From Antedon mediterranea (lineage: Eukaryota > Echinodermata > Crinoidea > Comatulida > Antedonidae): DNA of 64,000 nucleotides. Under the pieces are notes generated by a model. It had not been told where the DNA came from. It saw only the letters and a program-made list of their open reading frames with translations, and ran no database searches. The position numbers were made by a program, and so were the translations under genes. How positions within the stretch are numbered: position 1 is the stretch's first letter; each line of letters begins with the position of its first letter. The DNA is taken from the NCBI RefSeq assembly GCF_964355755.1, contig NC_092676.1, forward strand, positions 29,060,288-29,124,287, given 5' to 3'. Shown piece by piece: positions 21,601 to 56,035 of the stretch.

Positions 21601-24600
21601 CGCATAATAATGCAGCTAACTGTAGTCATCAGCGCATAATAATGCAGCTAACTGTAGTCATCAGCGCATAATAATGCAGCTAACTGTAGTCATCAGCGCA
21701 TAATAATGCAGCTAACTGTAGTCATCAGCGCATAATAATGCAGCTAACTGTAGTAATCAGCGCATAATAATGCAGCTAACTGTAGTCATCAGCGCATAAT
21801 AATGCAGCTAACTGTAGTAATCAGCGCATAATAATGCAGCTAACTGTAGTAATCAGCGCATAATAATGCAGCTAACTGTAGTCATCAGCGCATAATAATG
21901 CAGCTAACTGTAGTCATCAGCGCATAATAATGCAGCTAACTGTAGTCATCAGCGCATAATAATGCAGCTAACTGTAGTAATCAGCGCATAATAATGCAGC
22001 TAACTGTAGTCATCAGCGCATAATAATGCAGCTAACTGTAGTCATCAGCGCATAATAATGCAGCTAACTGTAGTCATCAGCGCATAATAATGCAGCTAAC
22101 TGTAGTCATCAGCGCATAATAATGCAGCTAACTGTAGTCATCAGCGCATAATAATGCAGCTAACTGTAGTAATCAGCGCATAATAATGCAGCTAACTGTA
22201 GTAATCAGCGCATAATAATGCAGCTAACTGTAGTAATCAGCGCATAATAATGCAGCTAACTGTAGTCATCAGCGCATAATAATGCAGCTAACTGTAGTCA
22301 TCAGCGCATAATAATGCAGCTAACTGTAGTAATCAGCGCATAATAATGCAGCTAACTGTAGTAATCAGCGCATAATAATGCAGCTAACTGTAGTCATCAG
22401 CGCATAATAATGCAGCTAACTGTAGTCATCAGCGCATAATAATGCAGCTAACTGTAGTAATCAGCGCATAATAATGCAGCTAACTGTAGTCATCAGCGCA
22501 TAATAATGCAGCTAACTGTAGTCATCAGCGCATAATAATGCAGCTAACTGTAGTAATCAGCGCATAAGAATGCAGCTAACTGTAGTAATCAGCGCATAAT
22601 AATGCAGCTAACTGTAGTCATCAGCGCATAATAATGCAGCTAACTGTAGTAATCAGCGCATAATAATGCAGCTAACTGTAGTCATCAGCGCATAATAATG
22701 CAGCTAACTGTAGTCATCAGCGCATAATAATGCAGCTAACTGTAGTAATCAGCGCATAATAATGCAGCTAACTGTAGTCATCAGCGCATAATAATGCAGC
22801 TAACTGTAGTAATCAGCGCATAATAATGCAGCTAACTGTAGTCATCAGCGCATAATAATGCAGCTAACTGTAGTCATCAGCGCATAATAATGCAGCTAGC
22901 TGTAGTAATCAGCGCATAATAATGCAGCTAACTGTAGTAATCAGCGCATAATAATGCAGCTAACTGTAGTAATCAGCGCATAATAATGCAGCTAACTGTA
23001 GTAATCAGCGCATAATAATGCAGCTAACTGTAGTAATCAGCGCATAATAATGCAGCTAACTGTAGTAATCAGCGCATAATAATGCAGCTAACTGTAGTCA
23101 TCAGCGCATAATAATGCAGCTAACTGTAGTCATCAGCGCATAATAATGCAGCTAACTGTAGTCATCAGCGCATAATAATGCAGCTAACTGTAGTCATCAG
23201 CGCATAATAATGCAGCTAACTGTAGTCATCAGCGCATAATAATGCAGCTAACTGTAGTCATCAGCGCATAATAATGCAGCTAACTGTAGTCATCAGCGCA
23301 TAATAATGCAGCTAACTGTAGTCATCAGCGCATAATAATGCAGCTAACTGTAGTCATCAGCGCATAATAATGCAGCTAACTGTAGTCATCAGCGCATAAT
23401 AATGCAGCTAACTGTAGTCATCAGCGCATAATAATGCAGCTAACTGTAGTCATCAGCGCATAATAATGCAGCTAACTGTAGTCATCAGCGCATAATAATG
23501 CAGCTAACTGTAGTAATCAGCGCATAATAATGCAGCTAACTGTAGTCATCAGCGCATAATAATGCAGCTAACTGTAGTCATCAGCGCATAATAATGCAGC
23601 TAACTGTAGTCATCAGCGCATAATAATGCAGCTAACTGTAGTAATCAGCGCATAATAATGCAGCTAACTGTAGTCATCAGCGCATAATAATGCAGCTATC
23701 TGTAGTCATCAGCGCATAATAATGCAGCTAACTGTAGTCATCAGCGCATAATAATGCAGCTAACTGTAGTAATCAGCGCATAATAATGCAGCTAACTGTA
23801 GTCATCAGCGCATAATAATGCAGCTAACTGTAGTCATCAGCGCATAATAATGCAGCTAACTGTAGTCATCAGCGCATAATAATGCAGCTAACTGTAGTCA
23901 TCAGCGCATAATAATGCAGCTAACTGTAGTCATCAGCGCATAATAATGCAGCTAACTGTAGTCATCAGCGCATAATAATGCAGCTAACTGTAGTCATCAG
24001 CGCATAATAATGCAGCTAACTGTAGTAATCAGCGCATAATAATGCAGCTAACTGTAGTCATCAGCGCATAATAATGCAGCTAACTGTAGTCATCAGCGCA
24101 TAATAATGCAGCTAACTGTAGTAATCAGCGCATAATAATGCAGCTAACTGTAGTAATCAGCGCATAATAATGCAGCTAACTGTAGTCATCAGCGCATAAT
24201 AATGCAGCTAACTGTAGTCATCAGCGCATAATAATGCAGCTAACTGTAGTAATCAGCGCATAATAATGCAGCTAACTGTAGTCATCAGCGCATAATAATG
24301 CAGCTAACTGTAGTAATCAGCGCATAATAATGCAGCTAACTGTAGTAATCAGCGCATAATAATGCAGCTAACTGTAGTAATCAGCGCATAATAATGCAGC
24401 TAACTGTAGTCATCAGCGCATAATAATGCAGCTAACTGTAGTCATCAGCGCATAATAATGCAGCTAACTGTAGTCATCAGCGCATAATAATGCAGCTAAC
24501 TGTAGTCATCAGCGCATAATAATGCAGCTAACTGTAGTCATCAGCGCATAATAATGCAGCTAACTGTAGTCATCAGCGCATAATAATGCAGCTAACTGTA

Positions 24601-27600
24601 GTCATCAGCGCATAATAATGCAGCTAACTGTAGTCATCAGCGCATAATAATGCAGCTAACTGTAGTCATCAGCGCATAATAATGCAGCTAACTGTAGTCA
24701 TCAGCGCATAATAATGCAGCTAACTGTAGTCATCAGCGCATAATAATGCAGCTAACTGTAGTCATCAGCGCATAATAATGCAGCTAACTGTAGTCATCAG
24801 CGCATAATAATGCAGCTAACTGTAGTCATCAGCGCATAATAATGCAGCTAACTGTAGTAATCAGCGCATAATAATGCAGCTAACTGTAGTAATCAGCGCA
24901 TAATAATGCAGCTAACTGTAGTCATCAGCGCATAATAATGCAGCTAACTGTAGTCATCAGCGCATAATAATGCAGCTAACTGTAGTCATCAGCGCATAAT
25001 AATGCAGCTAACTGTAGTCATCAGCGCATAATAATGCAGCTAACTGTAGTAATCAGCGCAAAGTTGTGTCTTGATTCAAGATTCAATTTTATTTGCCAAT
25101 TTAAAATGGAAATAATATGAGTATATTTTCAACATTAAATTCTAAAATGTATATTTTATTAATAAAAGTATTATTATATAAAAGATCTAACCGGCACCCA
25201 TTTTATACACCTGGGTGGAGAGAGGCAAATGTAAGTAAAGTGTCTTGCTTTTTTTTCTTTTTTTTTAAATATATATTTATATATATATTTTTGCTTTGTT
25301 TGGCAATAAAAGTTGAAAGAAGTAAAGTGTCTTGCTTAAGGATACAAGCAAATTGGCGAGGGTTGGATTTGAACCATGACCTCACAATCAGTAATCAAAA
25401 GTCCAACATACTGCAGTGCACGCCCTCACATACTATCTGAAGCCCTAGAATAAAAACATCCCCTTTAACCGTGTCCAATCATTACTAATCTAAACATTAC
25501 TTAGTTAATATTGTAAGGGTCTTGTAATTGCCGACATGCAGCAATGATTCATCATCACCATTAATCTATCACTTATTAGTTGTGTAAACTATGCATGTCA
25601 TAATAATAATTTATTGTGACTCTAAAGCACTGTCTACATTATAAAACTTTATGTGACAACAAAATGTGATGTTGCCAATATATGGAAATGATGATGTAAT
25701 ATCTACCGTAAACTAGTTTGATAGTGCAGATTGTAGCTTAAGATGAGAGTTGTCTGCTGCTTGTCTATTGTCCAGAAATCACTGTTGTGCCATTATTTAT
25801 TTGCTTCAATTTATAGTCATATAATTCACACTCTAGGTTTTTGTTAGAGGAAAGCAGCTGTTAATAACTTTAGATACAAACTCATAAAAGTTGCTTTTTC
25901 TCCTTTGGACATAGTCAAAGCTGTCTGAGTATACAGTATTCACTTTTTTTTTCTTTATTCAAAAGAACGTTGAAATTCTAAACATTATAACCAAACAGTT
26001 ACAGTTCTTGGACTTTATCTTTCCTTTTTAATGTCAACAAACAGAACCATTCTTTTTTCTTTTACAATTTCATTTACAAAATGACATTCTATTTTTAATA
26101 CTATAAAGGAGGAATTATTCAACTATTATTGGAAGAATAGTTTATATTTGACTGCAAGAATAAATGTAGAATACAAAAGATAAAAAGCAACAAATGAAAA
26201 TGACAATTGTACAATCTATTTAAAGATACCACTACAGTATGTGACTCACCATGTTCAAATATAGAAAAAGGGACATTCTCAACAAAGCCAAAATCCTGAA
26301 ATTGATTGGACTACGATAAAAATAAACTTGGAACGCTAAAGATGTATTATATGCTAAATTTAAATATTAAATTAGGAATATATGCATTTTCAGTACAATC
26401 GGTTAATAAGTCTGTCTGTACAAAAGCTATGAAACATTTACATTGACATTTAGTAGTTTATACTACTACTAGGTAATTCAGTATTTTTATGGTATTATTT
26501 TTAATCAGGGAAGGTGAAATTCTTCCCTGGTATCAATACCCATCTGTTTATTTACAATACGGCTTATTGCTCCTGTTATTGCTATCAAAGTCAGTTGTAT
26601 TCTAATACATACATACATGGGATCCTCCTCTTCTACGTCGTAGAACTGGAGTCGAAAACCTATTCAGCACCAAATAGCCTACTAAGGTGTTTGTTAAGAA
26701 TTTTCTTCAATTGTGTAATGGCTTTGGCTTGCCTGACTTTTAAAACTGTCAAACAATCTTCAACAATCAAACCAACCATACAATAATCGCGGAACACTGA
26801 TCTGTTTTCCAGATAAAACTGATCATGCACGTTTATATAAATACTGTGAATGATTAACAGTTCAGAAATTTCTACATGATTCTCTGTACTCTATTATCCA
26901 CATATAATAGATTACTGTATGTGCAGTATCATACTGTAGGCAAATTCTGTAATACAGTGTAACATACTGTATGTATCACATGTACCGCCTATACAGTATC
27001 ATAGGCAAATTCTGTAATACAGTGTAACATACTGTACTGTATCACATGTACCGCCTATACAGTATCATAGGCAAATTCTGTAATACAGTGTAACATACTG
27101 CACTGTATCACATGTACCGCCTATACAGTATCATAGGCAAATTCTGTAATACAGTGTAACATACTGTACTGTATCACATGTACCGCCTATACAGTATCAT
27201 AGGCCAATTCTGTAATACAGTGTAACATACTGTATGTATCACATGTACCGCCTATACAGTATCATAGGCAAATTCTGTAATACAGCGTCACATATTTATA
27301 ACATGTAGAACATGAATGTTAGGGTTAGGTTAAACAATGGACTACTCTTCCCTGGTTAAATTTATAATATGGCCTATGATACAGACTTCACATGCAATAC
27401 ATTACAGTGTATCATAGAATGCGGCTATGATACTGTACAAATTGTGTGCCAAACATCAGCCAACAAAAATTCTAAAGAAGGGAATCATACCAAACATAAT
27501 ACTGTATACTACTAATGTGTACTATACAGTATCCAGTATATTTCTTACCTATACCCATTTTTCAAAATGATGACGCCCAGATATTCGGTCAAATAACGGT

Positions 27601-37537: not shown

Positions 37538-37741
37538 TCACTCAGCTGTTTGCTCATTTTCAATAAATATATCTTTAAGCGAAATTGATTTAGCACCAAT
37601 AATGTCGGTCTCCTCTCCGTCTTTCTTTAGTTTTGGTGGTTTTTTATTCCTAATTTTAGCCGGGGCTGACATGCAGAGAGAATCTTTGTCAAAGTATAGA
37701 GGAACAACACCAAGATCTCCGTCAAATCTGTTTTTTGCAAC
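37538..37741 (-). CDS. TWNK: TWNK exon 12: C-terminus
   Basis: Encodes [20 protein letters not shown] then [20 protein letters not shown] and an acidic/polar tail to TGA at 37538-37540. NRFDGD is the conserved end of the RecA-like core. Confidence 0.95.
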   Translation of the reverse strand, partial: VAKNRFDGDLGVVPLYFDKDSLCMSAPAKIRNKKPPKLKKDGEETDIIGAKSISLKDIFIENEQTAE

Positions 37742-40700
37742 CTAAATGAAAAAAGATTGTTAGTATATTTTGCATTTATGATTCTAATTAAAGAAACTTT
37801 CATTTTTATTTCATTTATTTATTTGACCAACAAACCATAAGATTAAATATACAGAGATGAATTAGTCAGGGACTGCTAAAGTAAATAAGATTACTGTAAC
37901 TACAAGAGTCAACAGTTCCATGATCTTAACTAGAATAAATTTATAATGCAGCTGCCATTCAGGCACTGAATGTTTGTCAGTATACCATACGAGAGTCATG
38001 TGACACTTTCCAATTGTTTTTGTTTTTTTTATTTATCTGTTTTTGTATATCTCAGAGCAAACATAATGTCTATGTATATTTTATATGCAAATGACAATAA
38101 ATGGAAGTGATTTTTCACTGATGAATGAATGACTGAATATGCCGTGTAATACCTGAATGTACTTCTTGCCTCTCACAGACGTCAACCTTCTATCTTGAAG
38201 GATTAGAACGTTGTCTGCTTCTTGACTTGCCTTGGCACTACCAAATATGGAGGCAGTTTGCAGCTCATCCGAGTCTTTTTCCTGCAATTGATAAAAAATA
38301 AATTACCATGACTCCTACCAAGGTGATATTTAAGAGTCATATATAGTGTTTCAATTTAAAGTATTGCCTAACTAGAAACGGTAGGAATAGCACCATGGAC
38401 GAGCGCTACTATAGAGATTACAAGGTCAGATCCCAAGGTCATTATATCATACGTTCACACTGGCACGTCAATTTCCACTTAATCTAAATGTTCACATACT
38501 GTCGATGAGTAACAGTCGACTACGACCCATGTGTACGTGACCGTCGTGTGCACATTCACTCAATTTAAAAGTCCATGTTGAGATATTGTATATCATACAG
38601 AGTGCCCTTATGAGGCCAGAATATAAATAGTTTCGAGCGTGGATATCTTAGAATTAGAGACACACCACATGTACTCTCGCTATCAAAATGAATACTATTT
38701 CATGATTGTTACAATATCGTATGAGTATTTTGTAGACAATATATTACACACTGGGGTATTGTAATTTACATAATAAATAGTATAATATCAAGGTGGAATG
38801 TTGCGTGGGAACGCCAGCACTGAATGTGAATGTATCATAATTTGTGATGAAAATCTTCATTTGAAAAAACACCATTCAAGTTTTTACCTTGCGTGGGTGA
38901 ATAACCAAAGTCACATGACAATTATTCCGTGTTGCGAATGTGCGGAATGTTGCAATGATCGCATCGTACATAGCAAATCTGTCGCTGACAGTCTTGTCAG
39001 AAGAGCCAACCATAAACTGCAAATTGTCGATTATGACGTGTTCAATGTCGTGTACGTACACAGCGTGTGTCATTGCCTTTTAAAAAAAACATTACAATAT
39101 TTTATATGTAATTATTGTGTAATGACATGTAAAGTAATGCTGTATGATATCTATGGGAGGCTACAGTTGCATTTATCATCCAAGTAGTTTATCTGTATTT
39201 AAAAGGTCTAAAGCTCTGTCCACACTATTAAACTTTATGTGAAAATGTGAAATGTGATGTACCCAAATCTGGAGATGATGATGTCATATCAGTACCATAT
39301 TTGGGCATATAACGACCATATTTAGGCACATTACAATTTTTTTGTCAAACTAGTTTGATAGTGTACACAGAGCTTTAAGCTATGGAAGTGCTTTTATGGG
39401 AGTAACACCAGTGCTGTTACACCATTCATGCATACTCCCCTCTACCTTTCAACCTGTTTACCTCAATGACAGCTTTCATGTTTTGTTGTCCATGGAAGTC
39501 TAAAAAGTAAAGCGGTAACAGTTCCATCTTATCAGCCCATTCATCAAACACAGCAATGTTCTGTTCCATATTTAACCTTAAATCATAATTACCATCAATT
39601 ATTCATACCAATATTTAAAGCTCTGTCTACACTATCAAACTTAATGGGACAAAAAAATGTGATGTCATATCACTAACATATTTAAGCATATCACTACCAT
39701 ATTTGGGCACATCTCACTTTTTTTGATAGTGTAGACGGAGCTTAAGAGTATTTTTATTCACAAAATCTGATATCAATATCTAATAGTGGTGGTTCACAGT
39801 ATTATCATGCATCACATTAACACTGATATTGGAGCTACTCTTGTAGTAACAAAGTTTGAAATAAATGATACGGTTACTTACTGGGAAAACTGGCGAATCA
39901 TAGTTTTAGCAAGTCGTACATTCTTAATTTCAAAACTGCCCCATAGTGTGTTTACCTAGATAAATTAAATGATATACTTTTGAATGTCATTGAGTATTAC
40001 TGTACTCTGTAACCCAAGAAGAAGGAACAATTTATTATTGTAAAATACAGAATTTGATTATAATTGTATCATGTAATTGGTGTTTACACTGTTAGATGAA
40101 AATGAAATAAATATAATACACTTGACTATCTCAATATCTGATTCCTTTTATTATTCAATATAATGGAAATTACAATGTTCATATCTTGGCTTGCCTAAAA
40201 AAAATAAGGAAAAAAGAAAAAGAGAAGAGAAAAGAGAAGAAAGTAAAAGAATAAAAGAAGAGAGAAAAGAACAACAACAAGAAACATTAACAAGATGACT
40301 TACCCCTTGCATACACAAATCCAGGGAGTACTCACTGATGAATGTTGTCTTTCCACTTCCTGTTGGACCTGTGAACACGGTCAACTCTCCTTTCCTGTGA
40401 CCTTTTAATATGTTACACAGCTGTGGAAACCGCTGCCACTGTGAAATGCAAGTGTTCTTATTAAAGCATGTTATACCCCTTTCACACCAAAACTCCGGAG
40501 TGTCTCCGGAGACACCCCGGGGTTTATGACCATTCAAAACGTCGAGAAACTCCGGAGATACTCCTTTCACACCAACGTAGCAACTCCGGGGTTTATAAAA
40601 TAAAATTGTAAATGTCGCCCTCTATTTTGTTTGTTTACATAGCGACGATCATTAGAATCATTTTAATTAATAATATGTTTAATTTAATAATTACTTTCAA

Positions 40701-43700
40701 AAGTCTCAGAAGTAATATAATGTTTTATTGATACTACTTATTATTTTTTAACCTGCTATATATGTTGTACAAATATTTAAAGTATTTTGAAATAAAACTA
40801 AAGCAATGAGTGATCGTGTGAGGATGACCTTTTGACCCGAAACACTCCGGAGTTTGATGTTGGTACCTTTCACACCAAAACACCGGGGTGTCCCCGCAGT
40901 TCGCTCTCCGGAGAATGTTCAGCTGTTCAACCCCGCAGTTTTAAACTCCGGAGTTGCTTGATTTTACCTTTCACACCAAACAGCGGGACGTCAACTCCGG
41001 GGTGTCTCCGGAGTGTCTCCGGAGTTTTGCTTTTGGTGTGAAAGGGGTATTACACAGCTGTGGGAACCGCTGCCACTGTGAAGTGCAAGTGTTCTGCAGG
41101 GCTCGCAGAATCGCTTGCCCGACGTCCCGCGGCAACCAAATAAATACGTCGGGCAACTAAAATTTAACATATCATGTCCCGACGGGCAACCTCTTAAAAT
41201 CACCGAAAATGTCCACGATGTTTTACAGGGGTGGTGAAAAACTGTAACAATGAAAATAATAGTCGCGCACGAACGAATTCTCTTGACGTCGAGACCAGTG
41301 TAGTGTTTGTTAAGTAAATGTATGGATCGGAATTCGGTGGTATGGAACGTTATCTCCAGGAGCCAAAACATGTGTTTCTATGCAGTCGGGCGTATCAAGT
41401 CGTTGCGTATAGAGTTTCCAGGTCTGTCATATAGCACGCGGTCTCTTGCGGCATCCATTGATCGCGAAATAGGAAGCGTTGAACTCTCGGCTTTTAACTT
41501 ATTTGAAGTTATTATACCAGGGAGTTTCTAATTAACAACTCCCTAGTTATACTATAAACCAAATAAAATAGGGGCTAGTATGTTTTTGTTTTTCTCAATT
41601 ATCGACATCATTTTACGGTGGTAATAAAATCTGAATCTACTACTTATAGTATTAATTATGTGGCCTACAGCCTGATAGTAGATTAGGCCTATGTTTAATT
41701 ACATTCATGTTATGTATTTTGTGTGTAATAAATAATTTGCTGAATTACTGTAATTATTGTTCAAATTAATGTACAGTTGTAAATACAGTATATTATTAAA
41801 TTATTATAATAGATACGTAATTTTAATTGTCTGTGCCAAATAGGCGGCGGCCGATGTTTTTAACACAGGCAAGTAGGCCTACCATTTTTTTTACAAATAT
41901 TACAGAATATAAATTTAATAGGCCTAATAATTTATTTAATAAATACATTGAATACTTAAATAGTTACAGTATATTTTTTATTATCAACATTGAAAATAAT
42001 ACACTTCTTCGGGTATCGCCGAGAGTTGAACTTTCAAAAACTCCAACTTGGCGGAGCACGTGGTTTTCACCACAATTCGGCACAGTTCCCTTGTGTTTTC
42101 AATCACCAACTTGTGCGAGCAGATGGTTGTTTTTATCCAACCTGTGCGAGCTTCTACTGTAACAACAAGTAAACTTCCACAAGCCCGCACTCTCCACACA
42201 CCGTACCCATTAGACTTGCCCCAAGTCTGTATTATCTTTTTTTTTATTCATTTGTTTTTATTTCGACCGCGATTTTTGTCTGAAAATACAGACTTGTGAA
42301 ACACGTATAGAAATCGATTTGCAGACCGCAAACATCCGATCAGAATGACGTAGTTTATCATACCGTATTTGGCTATATGGGGCGGGCGGTATGTAAATAT
42401 GGATTTCGAATCAACCAATGAAAAAGATCGAGTACGTACAGTCTAGTGCTGAATGTACGATCGAGACTGTTGAAATATAAAATCGTAATGCCAAGTTGTT
42501 TTGTTTATTAATTGTTTAGTCTTTGGCCTAGGCCTCTTTCGTAGGTCCTACTCAATTCGCACGTATGACCTGCCAAATAAAACGCCAATAAAGTAGGCCT
42601 ACATACCACCACCGGCGACACACAACAACAGGGCTACACCACCACCACACAGTCATAGGGACTGGCATATATTTTTCAATTTATCTTTCTGCATTTGAAT
42701 AGTGTTCAGTTTGAAAGAGTATGTAATCGTAAGCATTTTAAACTTTAAATCAACAAAATTGATTGAGTATTTCGAAAGTTATGAATAAAATAAGGTGTAA
42801 AAATTTGGCACCATCACTATCCTTTGTTTACATAGGAATCCCCACCCCGCGTTTGTGACCTTGTACACAAATAGTCACTGGGTGAAAATACTACTAAAAC
42901 ACATATAAATACATTTTATGAACATATTTTTAATTAGAAAGTTGATGGTGACAAATATATATTTGCATAATACCACATTTTGTTTGGAAATTGTGTCAAA
43001 ATCACAAAAATAAGATAGAAAGTACTTATTTTATGTTTACCCTCTCCCCGGACTGCGCGAATGTCCCGGAGGAATACCCCCACCTCAGCCAGGCTGTGTG
43101 ATGACGTCATCAGGCACTTCGCGGCCTAGAATTGCTTACTCACCTAGCATCAGGTGATTAAAAACCTTTTGTGATCCAATATAGGTGATATTTATGTAAA
43201 ACCAAAGGCGTACACTGTTAAAATATAAATATATCTAAAATATATAAGCAAAATCCCAAAATATTAGGCATGTTTTCGATTTTTTCTGATTTTACTAACA
43301 TTTCGAGCCCAAAATAAAATGTCATCGCGAAGACATGTGGGCAAAGGAATTTCAAATTTTTCATCGGAATTTTCCGGAAAAGATCGTACAGTCATTCGTT
43401 TTTTCTGAATAGCCAATCAGAGTTCGTAAATTCATGCGCAAGTTGACCCCTTTTTAACAGGTTAAGGGTCACACTTGTCTATTCCCTAAAGATGTCTGCT
43501 GCCCTCTAGCGGTTTTGCTAGTAGCCACAGAACAGGACATGGTCTGGGTGGGAATTAAATCAAAATTATCTCCGCGTAATAAATGATCCATTCAATGTTT
43601 GATTTGCGGAGAAGCTAGCCTATCATATCACGAGTTTTCATGTTCTTGGGAAAAATCCCATCAAATGTTTACCAGACTACTAGGCCTAGGCATATAAAAT

Positions 43701-46700
43701 AATGTCTAGCCTTCAGAAACTTTTATAAATGTACCCAAGAAGTACACGTTGTCTAAACGTAACATAGCGCATGCGCACCATCTTAGTTGTTGAGTCTTTG
43801 AAATTCTGAAATATGAATATTAAAACGGTGTACGAGTGAGTAGCCAATCGCATGCAGCTGAAACTGGTCAACCGGATAATCGTATGCACCAAGAATTCTT
43901 GGTGTCAAACCACGTGACTTGTGCGTGTTTCCCCAGACGGAGTATCCAAAATCAAGTAGTATACGTATGAAACGCCATATGTGCCAAAATATTTATCTTT
44001 TTACTAATATTAAGACAAAACTCCGTCTGGAGCCCAGACTACGTACCCATGTGCTCCTACTACGTACGGCAGCTGCTGTGAGGTTTTTTGCTATACGCAT
44101 GCGTATTGTTTCACGTCACGTAGACGGACGTCAGTTGATGTTTTTTTTTTTTTTCTTCTCTATGATTTCAACGCGTTACAAGCTCATCACCTTCATAAGT
44201 ACTTTGTTTAAACTTTTTAGGCCTAGGAGGCCTACATTTCTATAGGCAATATTTTAGATATATCTATTAAATAATTGTAAGATAATTAGTGCCATGTCTA
44301 GGCCACTACATTTTAAATATCGCAAAATAGCTTGATTTCGGAATTTCATTGCACAATAGAAGCAAAACGTTTTTGCTCCCAAAGTAAACCCACGTGAATA
44401 CGCCTTTTTCATTCACGAAACGGAACACATCTTCGATCGATGACAAACAATGCCGTGCAACGAAGCGTAACCAACAGAAATAACATAGCGTTTTCAAGGG
44501 ATTTCAGGACACCATGTTAATTAAACAATCGCAACTCTTGTACGGAGGATCGTATGAGAAAATAAATTACTGTAAAATGTTCTTAAAAGATTGGCCTACA
44601 TCACTGTGTAATTGAAAAAATTTGAAAAATTGTTTACACTACTTTAAAATCCATCGAAAAAAACACCACAGTGTATTAAGCATAGGCGTTTTTCACCGAC
44701 GTTTTTTCGCGGTGCAGTCGCGGTATAAAACGTTAAAATTAAGTTAAAATAGTGGGCAAGTAAAAAAATGATGAGGGCAACCAAAATCTAAAACCTACTT
44801 GCCCGAAGGGCAACCAAATATTTTAGGATTCTGCGAGCCCTGGTTCTTATTTTAACATGTTACACAGCTGTGGGAACCGCTGCCACTGTGAAGTGTAAGT
44901 GTTCTTATTTTAGCATGTTACACAGCTGTGGGAACCGCTGCCACTGTAAAGTGTAAGTGTTCTTATTTTAACATGTTACACAGCTGTGGGAACCGCTGCC
45001 ACTGTGAAGTGCAAGTGTTCTTGTTTTAACATGTTACACAGCTGTGGGAACCGCTGCCACTGTGAAGTGCAAGTGTTCTTATTTTAGCATGTTACACAGC
45101 TGTGGGAACCGCTGCCACTGTGAAGTGCAAGTGTTCTTATTTTAGCATGTTACACAGCTGTGGGAACCGCTGCCACTGTGAAGTGCAAGTGTTCTTGTTT
45201 TAACATGTTACACAGCTGTGGGAACCGCTGCCACTGTGAAGTGTAAGTGTTCTAATTAAAGCATGTTACACACAGTACGGATTCCAGTTCTGTGGCCGGA
45301 TAAAATATCGTTAGAAATGGGTGTAGTGTTTAAAATAGAACCTTTTATTTACACCAATGCATTCAAGATTCTGTATAACATGTGTGTGTGTGTGTGTGTG
45401 AGTGAAAATGTATACATGTTCAGGGCCTACTAACCTTAACACCAGCCACTTGGTCAGTATCTGTGAGTTCTCTGAACACTTCTTGTCGTAGGTTTTGAAA
45501 TGATAAAATTGACCTATGGGCAACAGGTTGAGCCCTCTTGAGAATTTTCATCAAATCCATATTCATGTTCAGGGCCTGAAGAGGTGCTGGGAGGTCATCA
45601 AGTGGTCTAATAATAAAATAATATTAATGTTCAGGGCCTGAAAGGGATGCTGGGAGGTCATCAATAAAATAATATTCATGTTCAGGGCCTACACATGTGC
45701 TGAAAGTGGTCTAAATAATAAAAGAATATTCATGTTCAGGGCCTGAAGAGGTCTTGGGAGGTCATCAAGTGATGATGATGACCTTCTAATTAAAGACTAT
45801 CATACATATCCCTCTTGGTAATTCCAATCATTTACACTTTTGGCAGTTGAACAACAGATTTTAACTAAATCATAACATCACATACCTGAGGAGATGACAT
45901 CTTTTAGAGTTCAATTTTTTAGAAAATTTTCTAGCTGTTTCCCAAGATCGCACATCATTTCCAAACCAAAGAGTGATCTTCTTAAAATGTTCAAGCATTG
46001 GTAAAATCTACAAAATAGAATTTTGTTTCAACCTTATTCAGTGCCTTCGTGGCTTTATTGCAGTAATTGTATAGAAGTATACCTCTTGCTATTTAAGTAT
46101 TCTGGCACGCTACTTTACCTCTTGTGGCAGAGTCATGAGACCTCTTGGAAGAGACAGAACTGGCGTCTGGAGCTTCTGATGGACTGCCACTGCATCAAAC
46201 TCGTTCAATGTCAGTATAACCTCTTCTGAATCTGGTGCCAATAGTTGGTAGCCAAAGAGACCTTCTGGATTCAACCTTAGGGAACAGAATTAAAATTAGT
46301 TAATTTTGGGGAGTGATAAATTGGTATGCGTTGTTGACGCCAATATAGAATGACATTGAGAAAGTCTTAAAATTCTTCATCATCTTGTATATACTTGCCT
46401 TGGATAGGAAAAGGTGTCTAACTGAAGGTGCTTATTTCGATGAACTTTGGCCATCGCCAGATGTTTTACAGCACTTATGTCCATATTATGATTGTGAAGA
46501 GGTAAAATAAGAGTTTTATCATCTTTACAAACACATACATTTAATTTATCAAGAGCAGCATCAGTCAGTACCTGAAAAACATTAAACATCAAACTGTTCT
46601 AAAGCTCTGTCTACACTTTCAAACTTTTACAAAAAAAAAGAGTTTGATGTTCCCAAATATGGTAGTGATATGCCTAAATATGATAGTGATATGCTCAAAT

Positions 46701-47608
46701 ATGATAGTGATATGCTCAAATATGGTAGTGATATGATATCATGTCAATATATGGGCACATCATATTTGTATCACATATATTTGTGATGTATGTTGCGCCA
46801 TAAGCAGCAAAAATGATGTGGTATCTGTTCCAATACAACTTTACTTTCACCCTCCTAAGAAGTGCACCTCATGTATAAATGTTTTAAACAGGAACATTGT
46901 TCAAACACATTAATGTACCTCAATCTGAAATAGTTTCTTTAATGTCACTTTTTTTCTACCAGTACAATCACTAAATTTGTTGGATTCCGTCAACTTAACG
47001 ATTCCTTCATCCAATTCTTCTTTACGTTTCTCTGCATCCTCATCTTCTTCCGCATCCAGCAACAGCTCTCTTCGTTTCTGGAGGCTGATCCGATCTTGTA
47101 ACCGATTCCAAGAACCGCACAACTTCTGACATTGGCAGCTATGGTAACCTGGAATAGAAATTAGCCATTGCTAATAAAGGCTGTGTTGATTACTTAATGA
47201 AATGATTTGAACAACTTTGACCTCTAATCAACAGTAGATGAGTAAAGAGTAATGTTTTATACACATACCTGAGGTCTTATTCACAAACAGGCTTTTCTCT
47301 GGTTCTTCACAGAAAGGGCATTTTGTTTTAAAGCATGTGAATCCGTTGGTAACATCCCAACCATGTGCGTGTAAGCATTCTCTCATCTCCGTCGGCGTCG
47401 GAACGTGCACATCTTGAACGGATTGGATCTTGAGAAAGCGTTTCATCAACTTAATACTTGTATGAAAATTTCTAGATGCATTATTACTTTTTTGATTAGT
47501 AACATGTTTTAAAGATTGTTTTTTTACAATGACGTATGCCTTTGCACTGTTAACCTGTATATCAGTAGACCATGTCAGTTGGAAATGCTTTCTTGACAAT
47601 CGTTGCAT
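37538..47608 (-). CDS. TWNK: Twinkle, mitochondrial replicative DNA helicase (12 exons)
   Basis: Role by family: hexameric 5'-3' helicase of the mtDNA replisome, related to phage T7 gp4. Exons in transcript order: 47269-47608, 46919-47148, 46399-46571, 46119-46275, 45886-46007, 45435-45606, 40304-40438, 39882-39955, 39462-39576, 38888-39076, 38153-38281, 37538-37741. The join is in phase throughout and totals 2040 nt, 679 residues (human about 684). Features: a Lys/Arg/Ser-rich N-terminus free of acidic residues at first, plausible as a mitochondrial presequence; a T7-primase-like zinc module with C97-P-F-C100 and C118/C120; a primase-like domain; a linker; Walker A GPTGSGKT at 422-429; Walker B with VIIDNLQF around D523; then [12 protein letters not shown] and a Lys-rich tail. 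Start: the first in-frame ATG (47606-47608); a 5' ATG-only exon at 48383 is a possible extension. Intron 3 uses a GC donor, and intron 6 carries an unusual array. Confidence 0.96.
38153..38281 (-). CDS. TWNK: TWNK exon 11
   Basis: 43 codons, [20 protein letters not shown] then [19 protein letters not shown], near-identical to the human C-terminal helicase segment. Phase 0 at both ends. Confidence 0.96.
38888..39076 (-). CDS. TWNK: TWNK exon 10: Walker B
   Basis: 63 codons, [20 protein letters not shown] then [25 protein letters not shown] holds the Walker B aspartate and the LVIHPRK strand is the conserved sensor region. Confidence 0.96.
39209..39377. mobile_element. MITE copy, 'gctctgtctacactatcaaa' family
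   Basis: Ends 'aaagctctgtccacactatt' and 'gtttgatagtgtacacagag'. It lies in the intron between TWNK exons 9 and 10. Confidence 0.8.
39462..39576 (-). CDS. TWNK: TWNK exon 9
   Basis: Encodes [20 protein letters not shown] then [16 protein letters not shown]. The FHGQQ motif is typical of Twinkle. Confidence 0.94.
39616..39744. mobile_element. MITE copy, 'gctctgtctacactatcaaa' family
   Basis: Ends 'aaagctctgtctacactatc' and 'ttgatagtgtagacggagct'. Two copies of this family occupy adjacent TWNK introns. Confidence 0.8.
39882..39955 (-). CDS. TWNK: TWNK exon 8
   Basis: Encodes [20 protein letters not shown] then [14 protein letters not shown] is the helicase motif carrying the catalytic glutamate region (SFEISNVRLA in human). 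Confidence 0.94.
40304..40438 (-). CDS. TWNK: TWNK exon 7: Walker A
   Basis: 45 codons, [20 protein letters not shown] then [20 protein letters not shown] and LCMQG. It holds the nucleotide-binding P-loop. Its acceptor and first codons are the sequence multiplied in the tandem array of the preceding intron. Confidence 0.97.
40474..41049. mobile_element. 576-bp inverted-repeat element with TTA target-site duplication
   Basis: Left end 'tacccctttcacaccaaaac' matches the complement of the right end 'ttttggtgtgaaaggggta'. Long CCGGAG-rich arms extend inward on both sides. TTA flanks it at 40471-40473 and 41050-41052, and excising it restores 'catgttacacagctgtgg' of the host tandem unit. TWA duplication and such ends suggest a non-autonomous PIF/Harbinger-type element; no transposase is seen. 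Confidence 0.85.
41097..44842. mobile_element. 3.7-kb element with 16-bp terminal inverted repeats, no transposase seen
   Basis: Left end 'cagggctcgcagaatc' is matched exactly, inverted, at 44827-44842. Both subterminal regions carry 'gggcaacc'-type words. Flanks read GTTCT on each side (41091-41095 with one extra G, and 44843-44847), suggesting a 5-bp target duplication. The interior is mostly AT-rich with a GC-richer part near 42900-43150 and 43900-44100; open frames there are short and unrecognised. A CAGGG start is typical of hAT elements, but these usually make 8-bp duplications, so the superfamily is open. Confidence 0.7.
43099..43112. promoter_or_regulatory. CRE-like palindrome TGATGACGTCATCA
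   Basis: A perfect 14-bp palindrome with a full CRE/ATF core, in a locally GC-rich part of the 3.7-kb element. It could be a promoter remnant of the element; no gene is attached. Confidence 0.3.
44844..45270. repeat. 58-bp tandem array copying the TWNK exon 7 splice acceptor
   Basis: Eight units in exact 58-bp register (44844, 44902, .. 45250). On the minus strand each holds a pyrimidine-containing stretch, CACAG and then TGGCAGCGGTTCCCACAGCT, i.e. the 3' splice site plus the first ~36 bases of exon 7. A further partial unit lies at 41050-41096 beyond the 3.7-kb element. Each copy would run into TAA about 12 codons in. Confidence 0.9.
45435..45606 (-). CDS. TWNK: TWNK exon 6: linker to the helicase domain
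   Basis: Encodes [40 protein letters not shown] and a helix ending VAGVK. This is the linker region, known in the family for hexamer contacts. Donor GTTAGT. Confidence 0.93.
45560..45780. repeat. Degenerate tandem copies of a TWNK exon 6 segment
   Basis: 'attcatgttcagggcctgaa' followed by a 'gaggtcatcaa' word recurs about 3-4 times, beginning inside exon 6 (45560-45606) and running into the upstream intron. It is another local duplication of exon-edge sequence in this gene. Confidence 0.6.
45886..46007 (-). CDS. TWNK: TWNK exon 5: primase-like domain
   Basis: Encodes [20 protein letters not shown] then [20 protein letters not shown], matching human '[22 protein letters not shown]'. Confidence 0.94.
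46119..46275 (-). CDS. TWNK: TWNK exon 4: primase-like domain
   Basis: Encodes [20 protein letters not shown] then [20 protein letters not shown] and [21 protein letters not shown] is diagnostic for Twinkle. The frame requires two bases (AG) from exon 3. Confidence 0.94.
46399..46571 (-). CDS. TWNK: TWNK exon 3: primase-like domain, GC donor
   Basis: Encodes [20 protein letters not shown] then [20 protein letters not shown] and FSYP. Ending at AAG|GCAAGT gives two overhanging bases and restores [13 protein letters not shown] across the junction. The nearby GT (GTATAT, 4 bases on) would throw exon 4 out of frame. Confidence 0.88.
46600..46790. mobile_element. Partial MITE copy with expanded core
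   Basis: Left end 'aaagctctgtctacactttc' followed by several repeats of 'aaatatgatagtgatatg(c)c'. No clear right terminus is found. Confidence 0.6.
46919..47148 (-). CDS. TWNK: TWNK exon 2: second half of the zinc module and charged helix
   Basis: Encodes [20 protein letters not shown] then a Glu/Lys-rich predicted helix ([20 protein letters not shown]). The HSCQCQKLC cysteines pair with CPFC of exon 1. Confidence 0.93.
47269..47608 (-). CDS. TWNK: TWNK exon 1: presequence and CPFC half of the zinc module
   Basis: [20 protein letters not shown] begins a basic, Ser-rich N-terminus. [20 protein letters not shown] and [20 protein letters not shown] follow, aligning with human 'TEIRQYLRGHG..' and '..SLFIDKT'. 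The open frame reaches back six more codons without a stop. Confidence 0.88.
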
Positions 47609-50275: not shown

Positions 50276-50857
50276 TTATTTGAAAATAAATATTGTTTTT
50301 CTTTGATTTTGAAAGAGAGATATTTCGAGGGTTGTAAATGTCAGGCCTAAACAAACAACAAAACAAGTGGACCTTTTTTTAAATCAAAAACAAAGTTGCA
50401 TAGCATTATTTTCCATTAAATAGACTGCCATAAAACCTCGAAAAGAAGCCCATGTGCTCCTTCATTTTTAGTACTCTTGGGTGGGTTTCTTTTCCACATG
50501 AAGTTCTTTTCGATATTACTTTTGCAAACTAAAAGAGAAGAGCTGGATTCCCGCCCGGAAAATGTTTTATTTACATGATTTGAATGAACAATCTTCTAAT
50601 GTAAAGATTAACAACATCAAATTTATATTAACAGTGTGGCGTGTTTACCGCGAATCTTCCCCATAATACACCTGCTCAAACTCATTTGCATAACAACGCA
50701 CGGCATACCAAGCTGTTTAGCTGCAAGGTCCCCAGAAATGACATCTATTATTTTTTTTAACAACATTTATAAGAATCTTCAGTACCCTACCATTTTTTGG
50801 GCTGAGCGAAGACAATTTTGAAAAATAGAGCTGCATAGGTTCCCGCTCGAAAAAAAT

Positions 50858-51655
50858 TACTTCCAATCAGAAGTTCCTTTTTGGTGTTGTAAGGTCTGAT
50901 ACAACTTACTTCCAAACAGTTCCGTCTGAGTTAATTTGACAACTTACTTCCAATTAGAAGTTCCTTTTTGGTGTTGAAAGGTCTGATACAACTTACTTCC
51001 AAACAGTTCCGTCTGAGTTAATTTGACAACTTACTTCCAATTAGAAGTTCCTTTTTGGTGTTGTAAGGGCTGATACAACTTACTTCCAAACAGTTCCGTC
51101 TGAGTTAAATAATTTGACAACTTACTTCCAATTAGAAGTTCCTTTTTGGTGTTGTAAGGTCTGATACAACTTACTTCCAAACAGTTCCGTCTGAGTTAAT
51201 TTGACAACTTACTTCCAATCAGAAGTTCCTTTTTGGTGTTGAGAGGTCTGATACAACTTACTTCCAAACAGTTCCGTCTGAGTTAAATAATTTGACAACT
51301 TACTTCCAATTAGAAGTTCCTTTTTGGTGTTGTAAGGTCTGATACAACTTACTTCCAAACAGTTCCGTCTGAGTTAAATAATTTGACAACTTACTTCCAA
51401 TTAGAAGTTCCTTTTTGGTGTTGTAAGGTCTGATATAACTTACTTCCAAACAGTTCCGTCTGAGTTAAATAATTTGACAACTTACTTCCAATTAGAAGTT
51501 CCTTTTTGGTGTTGTAAGGTCTGATACAACTTACTTCCAAACAGTTCCGTCTGAGTTAAATAATTTGACAACTTACTTCCAATCAGAAGTTCCTTTTTGG
51601 TGTTGTAAGGTCTGATACAACTTACTTCCAAACAGTTCCGTCTGAGTTAGCCTGA
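50858..51655. repeat. Tandem array, period 87-92 bp, about 9 copies
   Basis: Unit core 'acttccaattagaagttcct' .. 'ggtctgatacaacttacttc' .. 'aaacagttccgtctgagtta'. Copies with or without an extra 'aata' explain the length difference. Each unit contains 'caacttacttccaa' twice, so it arose from a half-unit duplication. It lies downstream of GPCR 1 and is the same family as 54560-56035. Confidence 0.93.
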
Positions 51656-54559: not shown

Positions 54560-56035
54560 GAATTCCAAACAGTTCCGTCTGAGTTAGCCTGACAACTTAC
54601 TTCCAATCAGAAGTTCCTTTTTGGTGTTGAGAGGTCTGATTTACTTCCAAACAGTTCCACATGAGTTAGCCCGACAACTTACTTCCAATCAGAAGTTCCT
54701 TTTTGGTGTTGAAAGGTCTGATACAACTTACTTCCAAACAGTTCCGTCTGAGTTAATTTGACAACTTACTTCCAATTAGAAGTTCCTTTTTGGTGTTGAG
54801 AGGTCTGATACAACTTACTTCCAAACAGTTCCACATGAGTTAGCCTGACAACTTACTTCCAATCAGAAGTTCCTTTTTGGTGTTGAAAGGTCTGATACAA
54901 CTAACTTCCAAACAGTTCCACATGAGTTAGCCCGACAACTTACTTCCAATCAGAAGTTCCTTTTTGGTGTTGAAAGGTCTGATACAACTTACTTCCAAAC
55001 AGTTCCACATGAGTTAGCCCGACAACTTACTTCCAATCAGAAGTTCCTTTTTGGTGTTGAAAGGTCTGATACAACTTACTTCCAAACAGTTCCACATGAG
55101 TTAGCCCGACAACTTACTTCCAATCAGAAGTTCCTTTTTGGTGTTGAGAGGTCTGATACAACTTACTTCCAAACAGTTCCACATGAGTTAGCCCGACAAC
55201 TTACTTCCAATCAGAAGTTCCTTTTTTGTGTTGAGAGGTCTGATACAACTTACTTCCAAACAGTTCCACATGAGTTAGCCCGACAACTTACTTCCAATCA
55301 GAAGTTCCTTTTTGGTGTTGAGAGGTCTGATACAACTTACTTCCAAACAGTTCCACATGAGTTAGCCCGACAACTTACTTCCAATCAGAAGTTCCTTTTT
55401 GGTGTTGAGAGGTCTGATACAACTTACTTCCAAACAGTTCCACATGAGTTAGCCCGACAACTTACTTCCAATCAGAAGTTCCTTTTTGGTGTTGAGAGGT
55501 CTGATACAACTTACTTCCAAACAGTTCCACATGAGTTAGCCTGACAACTTACTTCCAATCAGAAGTTCCTTTTTGGTGTTGAGAGGTCTGATACAACTTA
55601 CTTCCAAACAGTTCCACATGAGTTAGCCCGACAACTTACTTCCAATCAGAAGTTTCTTTTTAGTGTTGAGAGGTCTGATACAACTTACTTCCAAACAGTT
55701 CCGTCTGAGTTAATTTGACAACTTACTTCCAATTAGAAGTTCCTTTTTGGTGTTGAGAGGTCTGATACAACTTACTTCCAAACAGTTCCACATGAGTTAG
55801 CCCGACAACTTACTTCCAATCAGAAGTTCCTTTTTGGTGTTGAGAGGTCTGATACAACTTACTTCCAAACAGTTCCGTCTGAGTTAGTCTGACAATACTA
55901 CAAATCAGAAGTTCCTTTTTGGTGTTGAAACTGAGTTAGCCTCACAACTTGCTTCCAATCAGAAGATCTTTGGTGTTGAAAAGTTTTAAACAGCTTATTT
56001 CCAATCAGAAGATCCTTTTTGGTGTTAAGTTCCGT
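54560..56035. repeat. Tandem array, period 87 bp, about 15 copies plus degenerate end
   Basis: Same family as 50858-51655. Most units here carry 'ccacatgagttagcccgac' in place of 'ccgtctgagttaatttgac', with a few of the other type interspersed. The last 150 bp, towards GPCR 3, are degenerate. It fills most of the spacer between GPCR 2 and GPCR 3. Confidence 0.93.

Follow-up and report, generated by a model that had tools for sequence, protein, structure and literature searches.

Minisatellites that lie across an intron-exon boundary, known as mirages, have been published in amphioxus genes (Adh3, TnC, the globins BflGb6 and BflGb9, and PGBD5) (PMC3087553, PMC3902484), with a unit length of 10-160 bp (PMC3087553). 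According to the available parts of these reports, the AG/GT signals are kept in many units, and RT-PCR suggests that splicing is regular (PMC3087553, PMC3902484). In BflGb6, as far as the accessible text describes it, the repeat joins the 3' end of an intron to the 5' part of the next exon and counts 6 and 3 units in two haplotypes (PMC3087553). The array reported here, found in TWNK, the gene for the mitochondrial helicase Twinkle, in Antedon mediterranea, resembles these cases in that minisatellite-like copies cover an intron-exon boundary with a splice signal in many units, and its layout is that of BflGb6 as given in the available text. It differs from the amphioxus cases available to us in the gene concerned, in affecting two successive exons and in being split by two transposon insertions. 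The genomes differ as well: lancelets have 17-20 chromosomes, whereas 11 large chromosomes (C1-C11) account here for 353.5 of 354.4 Mb. A minisatellite with a splice site in every unit is also said to have been described in 1995 by Turri et al. in human IFI6 (6-16/G1P3), where it gives multiple splice donor sites that are reportedly used, while the sites repeated in TWNK are acceptors.

A further parallel is offered by the Rogers model, in which introns are gained by tandem genomic duplication, as in the potato RdRp case (PMC4974935). As in the part of that report available to us, a tandem duplication runs across splice-competent sequence, with the difference that in TWNK an existing intron was lengthened and no new intron is shown. 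In the literature searched, from which subscription journals were mostly absent, and in the accessible parts of the two amphioxus reports, the mirage structure is recognised for lancelets only (PMC3087553, PMC3902484). The TWNK array belongs to this known type of structure, has an unusually clear history, and probably extends mirages beyond lancelet genomes.

TWNK and the array of exon 7 acceptors

TWNK was read on the minus strand of the window, that is, of the whole 64,000-nt stretch of DNA analysed (Table 1). Its identity was established by phmmer with exons 1, 6 and 7 as the query against PDB, which returned the Twinkle chains 7t8b (E 1e-42) and 8e2l (E 6e-40). Exons 1-7 form a continuous reading without a stop; the frames of exons 8-12 are likewise open, and their peptides match. 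The junction of exons 6 and 7 is in phase 0 and falls at K/W (VAGVK/WQRFPQL), in agreement with both Twinkle chains found in PDB and within the conserved block that precedes Walker A. A genome search with an exon 6-7 query matched just the two exons of the TWNK locus, and a retrocopy or a second TWNK copy was accordingly rejected. Intron 3 (46276-46398, minus strand), as read from the frame over exons 3-4, is a GC-AG intron that starts with GC (CCAAG/GCAAGT), and intron 6, which holds the array, measures 4,996 bp (45434-40439).

Table 1. Features of the TWNK locus, in window coordinates
Feature	Position	Strand	Remarks
TWNK gene (Twinkle mitochondrial helicase)	37541-47608	minus	12 coding exons read
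Exon 1	47269-47608	minus	
Exon 5, end	45886	minus	
Exon 6 mirage	45559-45771	minus	four diverged copies, one of them native, of the acceptor region with the initial ~45 nt of exon 6; TRF and repeat search
Exon 6	45435-45606	minus	donor AAG/GTTAGT; phase 0 to exon 7
20-nt repeat of the exon 6 mirage unit	45411-45430	minus	inside the start of intron 6; 19/20 identical to 45673-45692
Array of seven acceptor-bearing 58-bp units and a 5' partial unit	44843-45272	minus	TRF
DNA transposon copy, 3,746 bp	41097-44842	.	inverted ends CAGGGCTCGCAGAATC; plus-strand flanks GTTCTG and GTTCTT
Detached eighth unit	41050-41095	minus	acceptor 41076/41075; separated from the array and the native unit by the two elements
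Hypothetical cryptic exon, 108 nt	40968-41075	minus	decoy acceptor 41075 and donor-like AAG/GTAAAA of the MITE; in-frame stop after 34 codons
MITE-like element, 576 bp	40474-41049	.	inverted ends TACCCCTTTCACACCAAAA; TTA/TTA flanks; inside the mirage
Native ninth (last) 58-bp unit	40403-40473	minus	includes the TAACATG edge; 3' part is exon 7 coding sequence; repeat search and unit table
Exon 7	40304-40438	minus	native acceptor TTTCACAG/TGGCAGCGG at 40439/40438
Exon 9	 	minus	5' edge approximate
Exon 12	37541-37741	minus	followed by TGA

TRF described the array as 58 bp x 7.4 with a 95% match, and its 5' partial unit lacks an acceptor. A 33-bp acceptor core was matched nine times in the window at up to 3 mismatches, against 0 matches in 100 shuffles: seven matches fall in the array and one each at 41050-41082 and exon 7. 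These results uphold the first-pass annotation in deriving the array from the acceptor and first bases of exon 7 of TWNK itself. It had counted eight 58-bp units and a partial one at 41050-41096; the period and the detached copy stand, while the acceptor-bearing units of the array are seven, the rest being the 5' partial. Nine acceptors result in all: seven in the array, one in the copy at 41075, and the native one of exon 7 at 40438. What was copied is the whole 58-bp unit, made of 22 nt of intron followed by 36 nt of exon 7, and a genome search for it, in which the count is a lower bound, found the TWNK locus only. Intron end, splice signal and exon start are all present in the seven array units, the detached unit and the native one, and the unit length falls within the published mirage range, as do the 51-54 bp of the repeat at exon 6 described below.

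The seven array units are identical to the native unit at 52-55 of 58 positions, with eight positions variable among them and the native unit. The native acceptor had been called slightly different from its copies, which holds for three distinguishing bases, although the strings given for it needed correction: the native site reads ATTTCACAG/TGG, while the decoys read ACTTCACAG and, in one case, ACTTTACAG. More specifically, the native unit differs from all eight decoys at -8 and at +12 (synonymous), and from all seven array units at +30, a position before which the 41075 copy ends. Such native-specific bases would be expected if homogenisation had acted among the inner units and spared the edge unit; homogenised inner units next to an unhomogenised edge unit are the pattern described for BflGb6 in the accessible part of that report (PMC3087553).

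Two DNA transposons inserted between the units

Two DNA transposons were inserted between units of the array, and seven units were shifted by 4.4 kb as a result. For the smaller element, we took terminal inverted repeats with a 3-bp TWA target duplication as the mark of a PIF/Harbinger-like MITE; the inverted repeats are present, and the TTA/TTA flanks match in three of the five distinct copies read, TWNK's included. Each of its two end pieces was found in at least 40 genomic places (the TWNK one included), at 96-100% and 98-100% identity, and these counts are lower bounds (298 and 340 candidates for the two pieces). The ends of the other copies coincide, or nearly so, with those of the TWNK copy.

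The ends of the larger element were set in the same way by its relatives. Among the matches listed, its left end has 37 others (84-99% identity), 36 of which start at 41094-41097 (query 15-18), and its right end has 40 others (88-100%), 35 of them ending at 44842-44844 (query 203-205). It carries the inverted repeat CAGGGCTCGCAGAATC at both ends, and the family makes a target duplication of constant length: among 11 other copies with both ends fetched, 10 show a perfect duplication of 5 bp and one a perfect duplication of 6 bp. The TWNK copy is unlike these 11 in that its duplication is imperfect, since GTTCTG and GTTCTT can be taken either as a 5-bp duplication with one extra base or as a 6-bp one with one change (5/6). 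By its ends and target duplication the element is a putative hAT-like transposon with a 5-bp target duplication (hAT5 label). The high identity of most members of the family suggests recent activity. Copies share both ends and vary in length from about 1.9 to 5.7 kb (e.g., C3:3921291-3926991 and C10:15580182-15582089).

With the two elements, a single TTA and a single 6-bp flank removed in silico, the nine acceptors were spaced exactly 58 bp apart, eight times in succession, into exon 7. TRF on the joined sequence with the TTA removed and the 6-bp flank kept reported a single array of 58 bp x 9.3 that ends within exon 7. In the order before insertion, the native acceptor is the ninth of the series and lies some 665 nt away from the donor of exon 6, and the authentic boundary is an edge unit in the 58-bp register. 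The distance of about 4.4 kb between array and true site, as annotated before, is therefore correct for the present locus and secondary in origin, being due to the two later insertions; the native site is itself the last unit of the array.

Two other explanations of the repeat were considered. As the array and the detached unit directly adjoin transposon ends, the array might have been laid down as part of a mobile element that had picked up the exon 7 boundary. The element ends set by other copies stop at the units, the unit was found nowhere else in the genome (again as a lower bound), and the target duplications show that the elements entered the array, so that we reject this origin as having next to no likelihood. 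A misassembly, to which tandem arrays are prone, is hardly more probable in view of the eight variable positions among the array units and the native one, the coherent history told by the detached unit and the target duplications, and a chromosome-level assembly with no N in the window or in the 20 large pieces read.

We thus consider, with a probability of about 0.83, that the array is a mirage, a 58-bp minisatellite across the boundary of intron 6 and exon 7 that was split by transposons and whose decoys are mostly silent. The intron sequence at the array's upstream edge is TGTGTAACATGCTTTAAT, and CTGTGTAACATATTAAAA occurs in the exon. Judging from these edges, the likely seed would be a 10-bp direct repeat, TGTGTAACAT, of which intron and exon hold one copy each. 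Mispairing of the two short repeats may have produced the first duplication, and unequal exchange may have added further units, so that the 58-bp segment across the boundary would have been duplicated in tandem and grown to nine units. The intact exon would have stayed attached to the last unit, and the protein would therefore still be encoded. Two DNA transposons then landed between units, displacing seven of them by 4.4 kb, and exon definition would choose the native site and leave most decoys silent.

Decoy acceptors and the choice of the native site

If RNA were read onward from a decoy, an in-frame stop would precede Walker A in all eight cases, as the first-pass annotation had anticipated. 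The TAA after about 12 codons that it assigned to every decoy occurs in five of the eight; the stop comes after 27 codons in two others and after 34 in the 41075 copy. We asked what might set the native site apart. Pyrimidines occupy 9 of the 16 positions from -20 to -5 in all nine acceptors, native and decoys alike, and a stronger native acceptor was rejected on this count. Because the acceptors cannot be told apart by their local sequence, what favours the true site must lie in its surroundings. Recursive splicing was also discarded, because the unit reads AG/TG, not AG/GT, and so offers no ratchet site.

Donors were scored with a matrix built from TWNK's own 11 donors, that is, from one gene, and the real donors were scored leave-one-out. 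Within the units every GT scores 2.0 or less, compared with 3.3-10.5 (leave-one-out) for the 11 TWNK donors, among them the donors of exon 7 (10.7; leave-one-out 8.1) and exon 6 (8.7; leave-one-out 6.7). Because the units lack a donor and the native site alone is followed by a full exon with a good donor, the decoys are expected to be mostly silent, and on these scores they probably are.

Beyond the units themselves, the insertions have left seven of the eight decoys with donor-like sites above 3.3, the score of the lowest real donor, at no more than 400 nt. A single such site in the large element (score 5.4) follows six of the seven array acceptors at a distance of 87-377 nt. The small element holds five sites above 3.3 within 400 nt beyond 41075. 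The best, at 108 nt, scores 8.4 and matches the donor of exon 10 in all nine letters (AAG/GTAAAA); this score was obtained with the exon 10 donor included in the matrix, and exon 10 itself scores 7.0 leave-one-out. The 41075 acceptor and this site may delimit a potential poison exon, which would be a possible exception to the silence of the decoys.

These observations could be read as splicing-based control, in which decoy acceptors would lead to NMD-targeted transcripts that tune TWNK dosage, with the 108-nt exon 41075-40968 as the best candidate. The decoy acceptors are intact and locally resemble the native one, the MITE site is identical in nine letters to a donor of the gene (exon 10), and the candidate exon contains an in-frame stop after 34 codons. 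We consider such control unlikely, given that the units have no donor of their own, that the published mirages, in the parts of the reports available, are described as not disturbing splicing (PMC3087553, PMC3902484), and that, judging from the score ranking, a single donor-like site of this kind is unremarkable in a 5-kb intron. Still less probable is a null-allele risk, by which a change in array length or the use of a decoy would harm TWNK in some individuals. Length instability is a feature of published mirages, as in the 6 versus 3 units of the BflGb6 haplotypes in the accessible text (PMC3087553); the TWNK array is at present wholly intronic, its unit is without a donor, and the open reading of exons 1-7 and 8-12 with matching peptides speaks for an undamaged gene. 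The locus provides a natural test of how the spliceosome can choose among nine locally similar acceptors.

Exon 6 and other exon edges

The acceptor of exon 6 has a mirage of its own, with a unit of 51-54 bp by TRF (Table 1). Alignment of the exon 6 acceptor with its upstream flank scored 44, whereas the best of 200 shuffles reached 18. The copies directly adjoin exon 6 on its upstream side, so that the authentic boundary is again the edge unit, and TTTAG/ACCACTT is kept in one of the three upstream copies. A genome search for this unit found just the place in TWNK. The same duplication process would thus have struck exon 6 too, probably earlier, because its copies are more diverged. On the downstream side the acceptor scored 16, a borderline value reached by 5 of the 200 shuffles, and the repeat of the unit at 45411-45430 suggests that exon 6 may lie within an old mirage cluster.

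We compared the boundaries of exons 1-12 of TWNK by side, in 48 comparisons (28, including the start-codon side of exon 1, and 20, including the stop side of exon 12), against 200 mononucleotide shuffles each. Two were far above their shuffles, the exon 6 and exon 7 acceptors on the upstream side. None of the other 46 was clearly duplicated; the exon 6 donor and the exon 12 acceptor, both upstream, equalled their best shuffle. The TWNK locus can be read as a layered history of duplication, homogenisation and two insertions, in which an essential gene has gathered splice decoys while still appearing intact.

To place this in the genome, we sampled 264 kb, which contained 50 tandem arrays of period 20 or more; minisatellites are thus common in this genome. 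In a sample of kinase genes (20 places of 10 kb each, picked from 140 kinase-search matches, with 52 ends of 26 chosen exon hits), two of the 52 ends, which are approximate, were just above their 100 shuffles (25 vs 24 and 26 vs 23). None of the 52 showed a duplication comparable to those of TWNK (score 42-44), and boundary arrays are therefore not shown to be frequent in this genome. A scan free of gene models gave 111 open frames leaving array edges; for 10 frames picked by hand from the best 45 of the 111, no Pfam match was above the cut-off and one was weak (E 0.21).

Duplications within exons tend to disrupt the frame, and those over an acceptor leave it intact, so such arrays may survive at exon edges. 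One could speculate, with considerable doubt, that mirages, rather than being peculiar to lancelets, are a general consequence of minisatellites arising at exon edges, where they would persist because duplications across a boundary are the only ones that spare the protein. Transposons inside a mirage might then give decoys donors, as for the potential 108-nt poison exon, and so open a route to new exons or introns and to control of mtDNA helicase dosage.

At L050:6382-7018 (C11, minus strand), the last unit of an array of 58 bp x 11 continues into an open frame that has a stop, with AATAAA further downstream; the frame has no Pfam or PDB match, and the site is a possible further mirage at a candidate terminal exon. 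Within the window, arrays of period 91 and 87 at 50857-51649 and 54563-55928 have clearly related units and lie 3 kb apart, and a 32-bp unit is repeated in 108 copies with a 98% match at 21601-25060.
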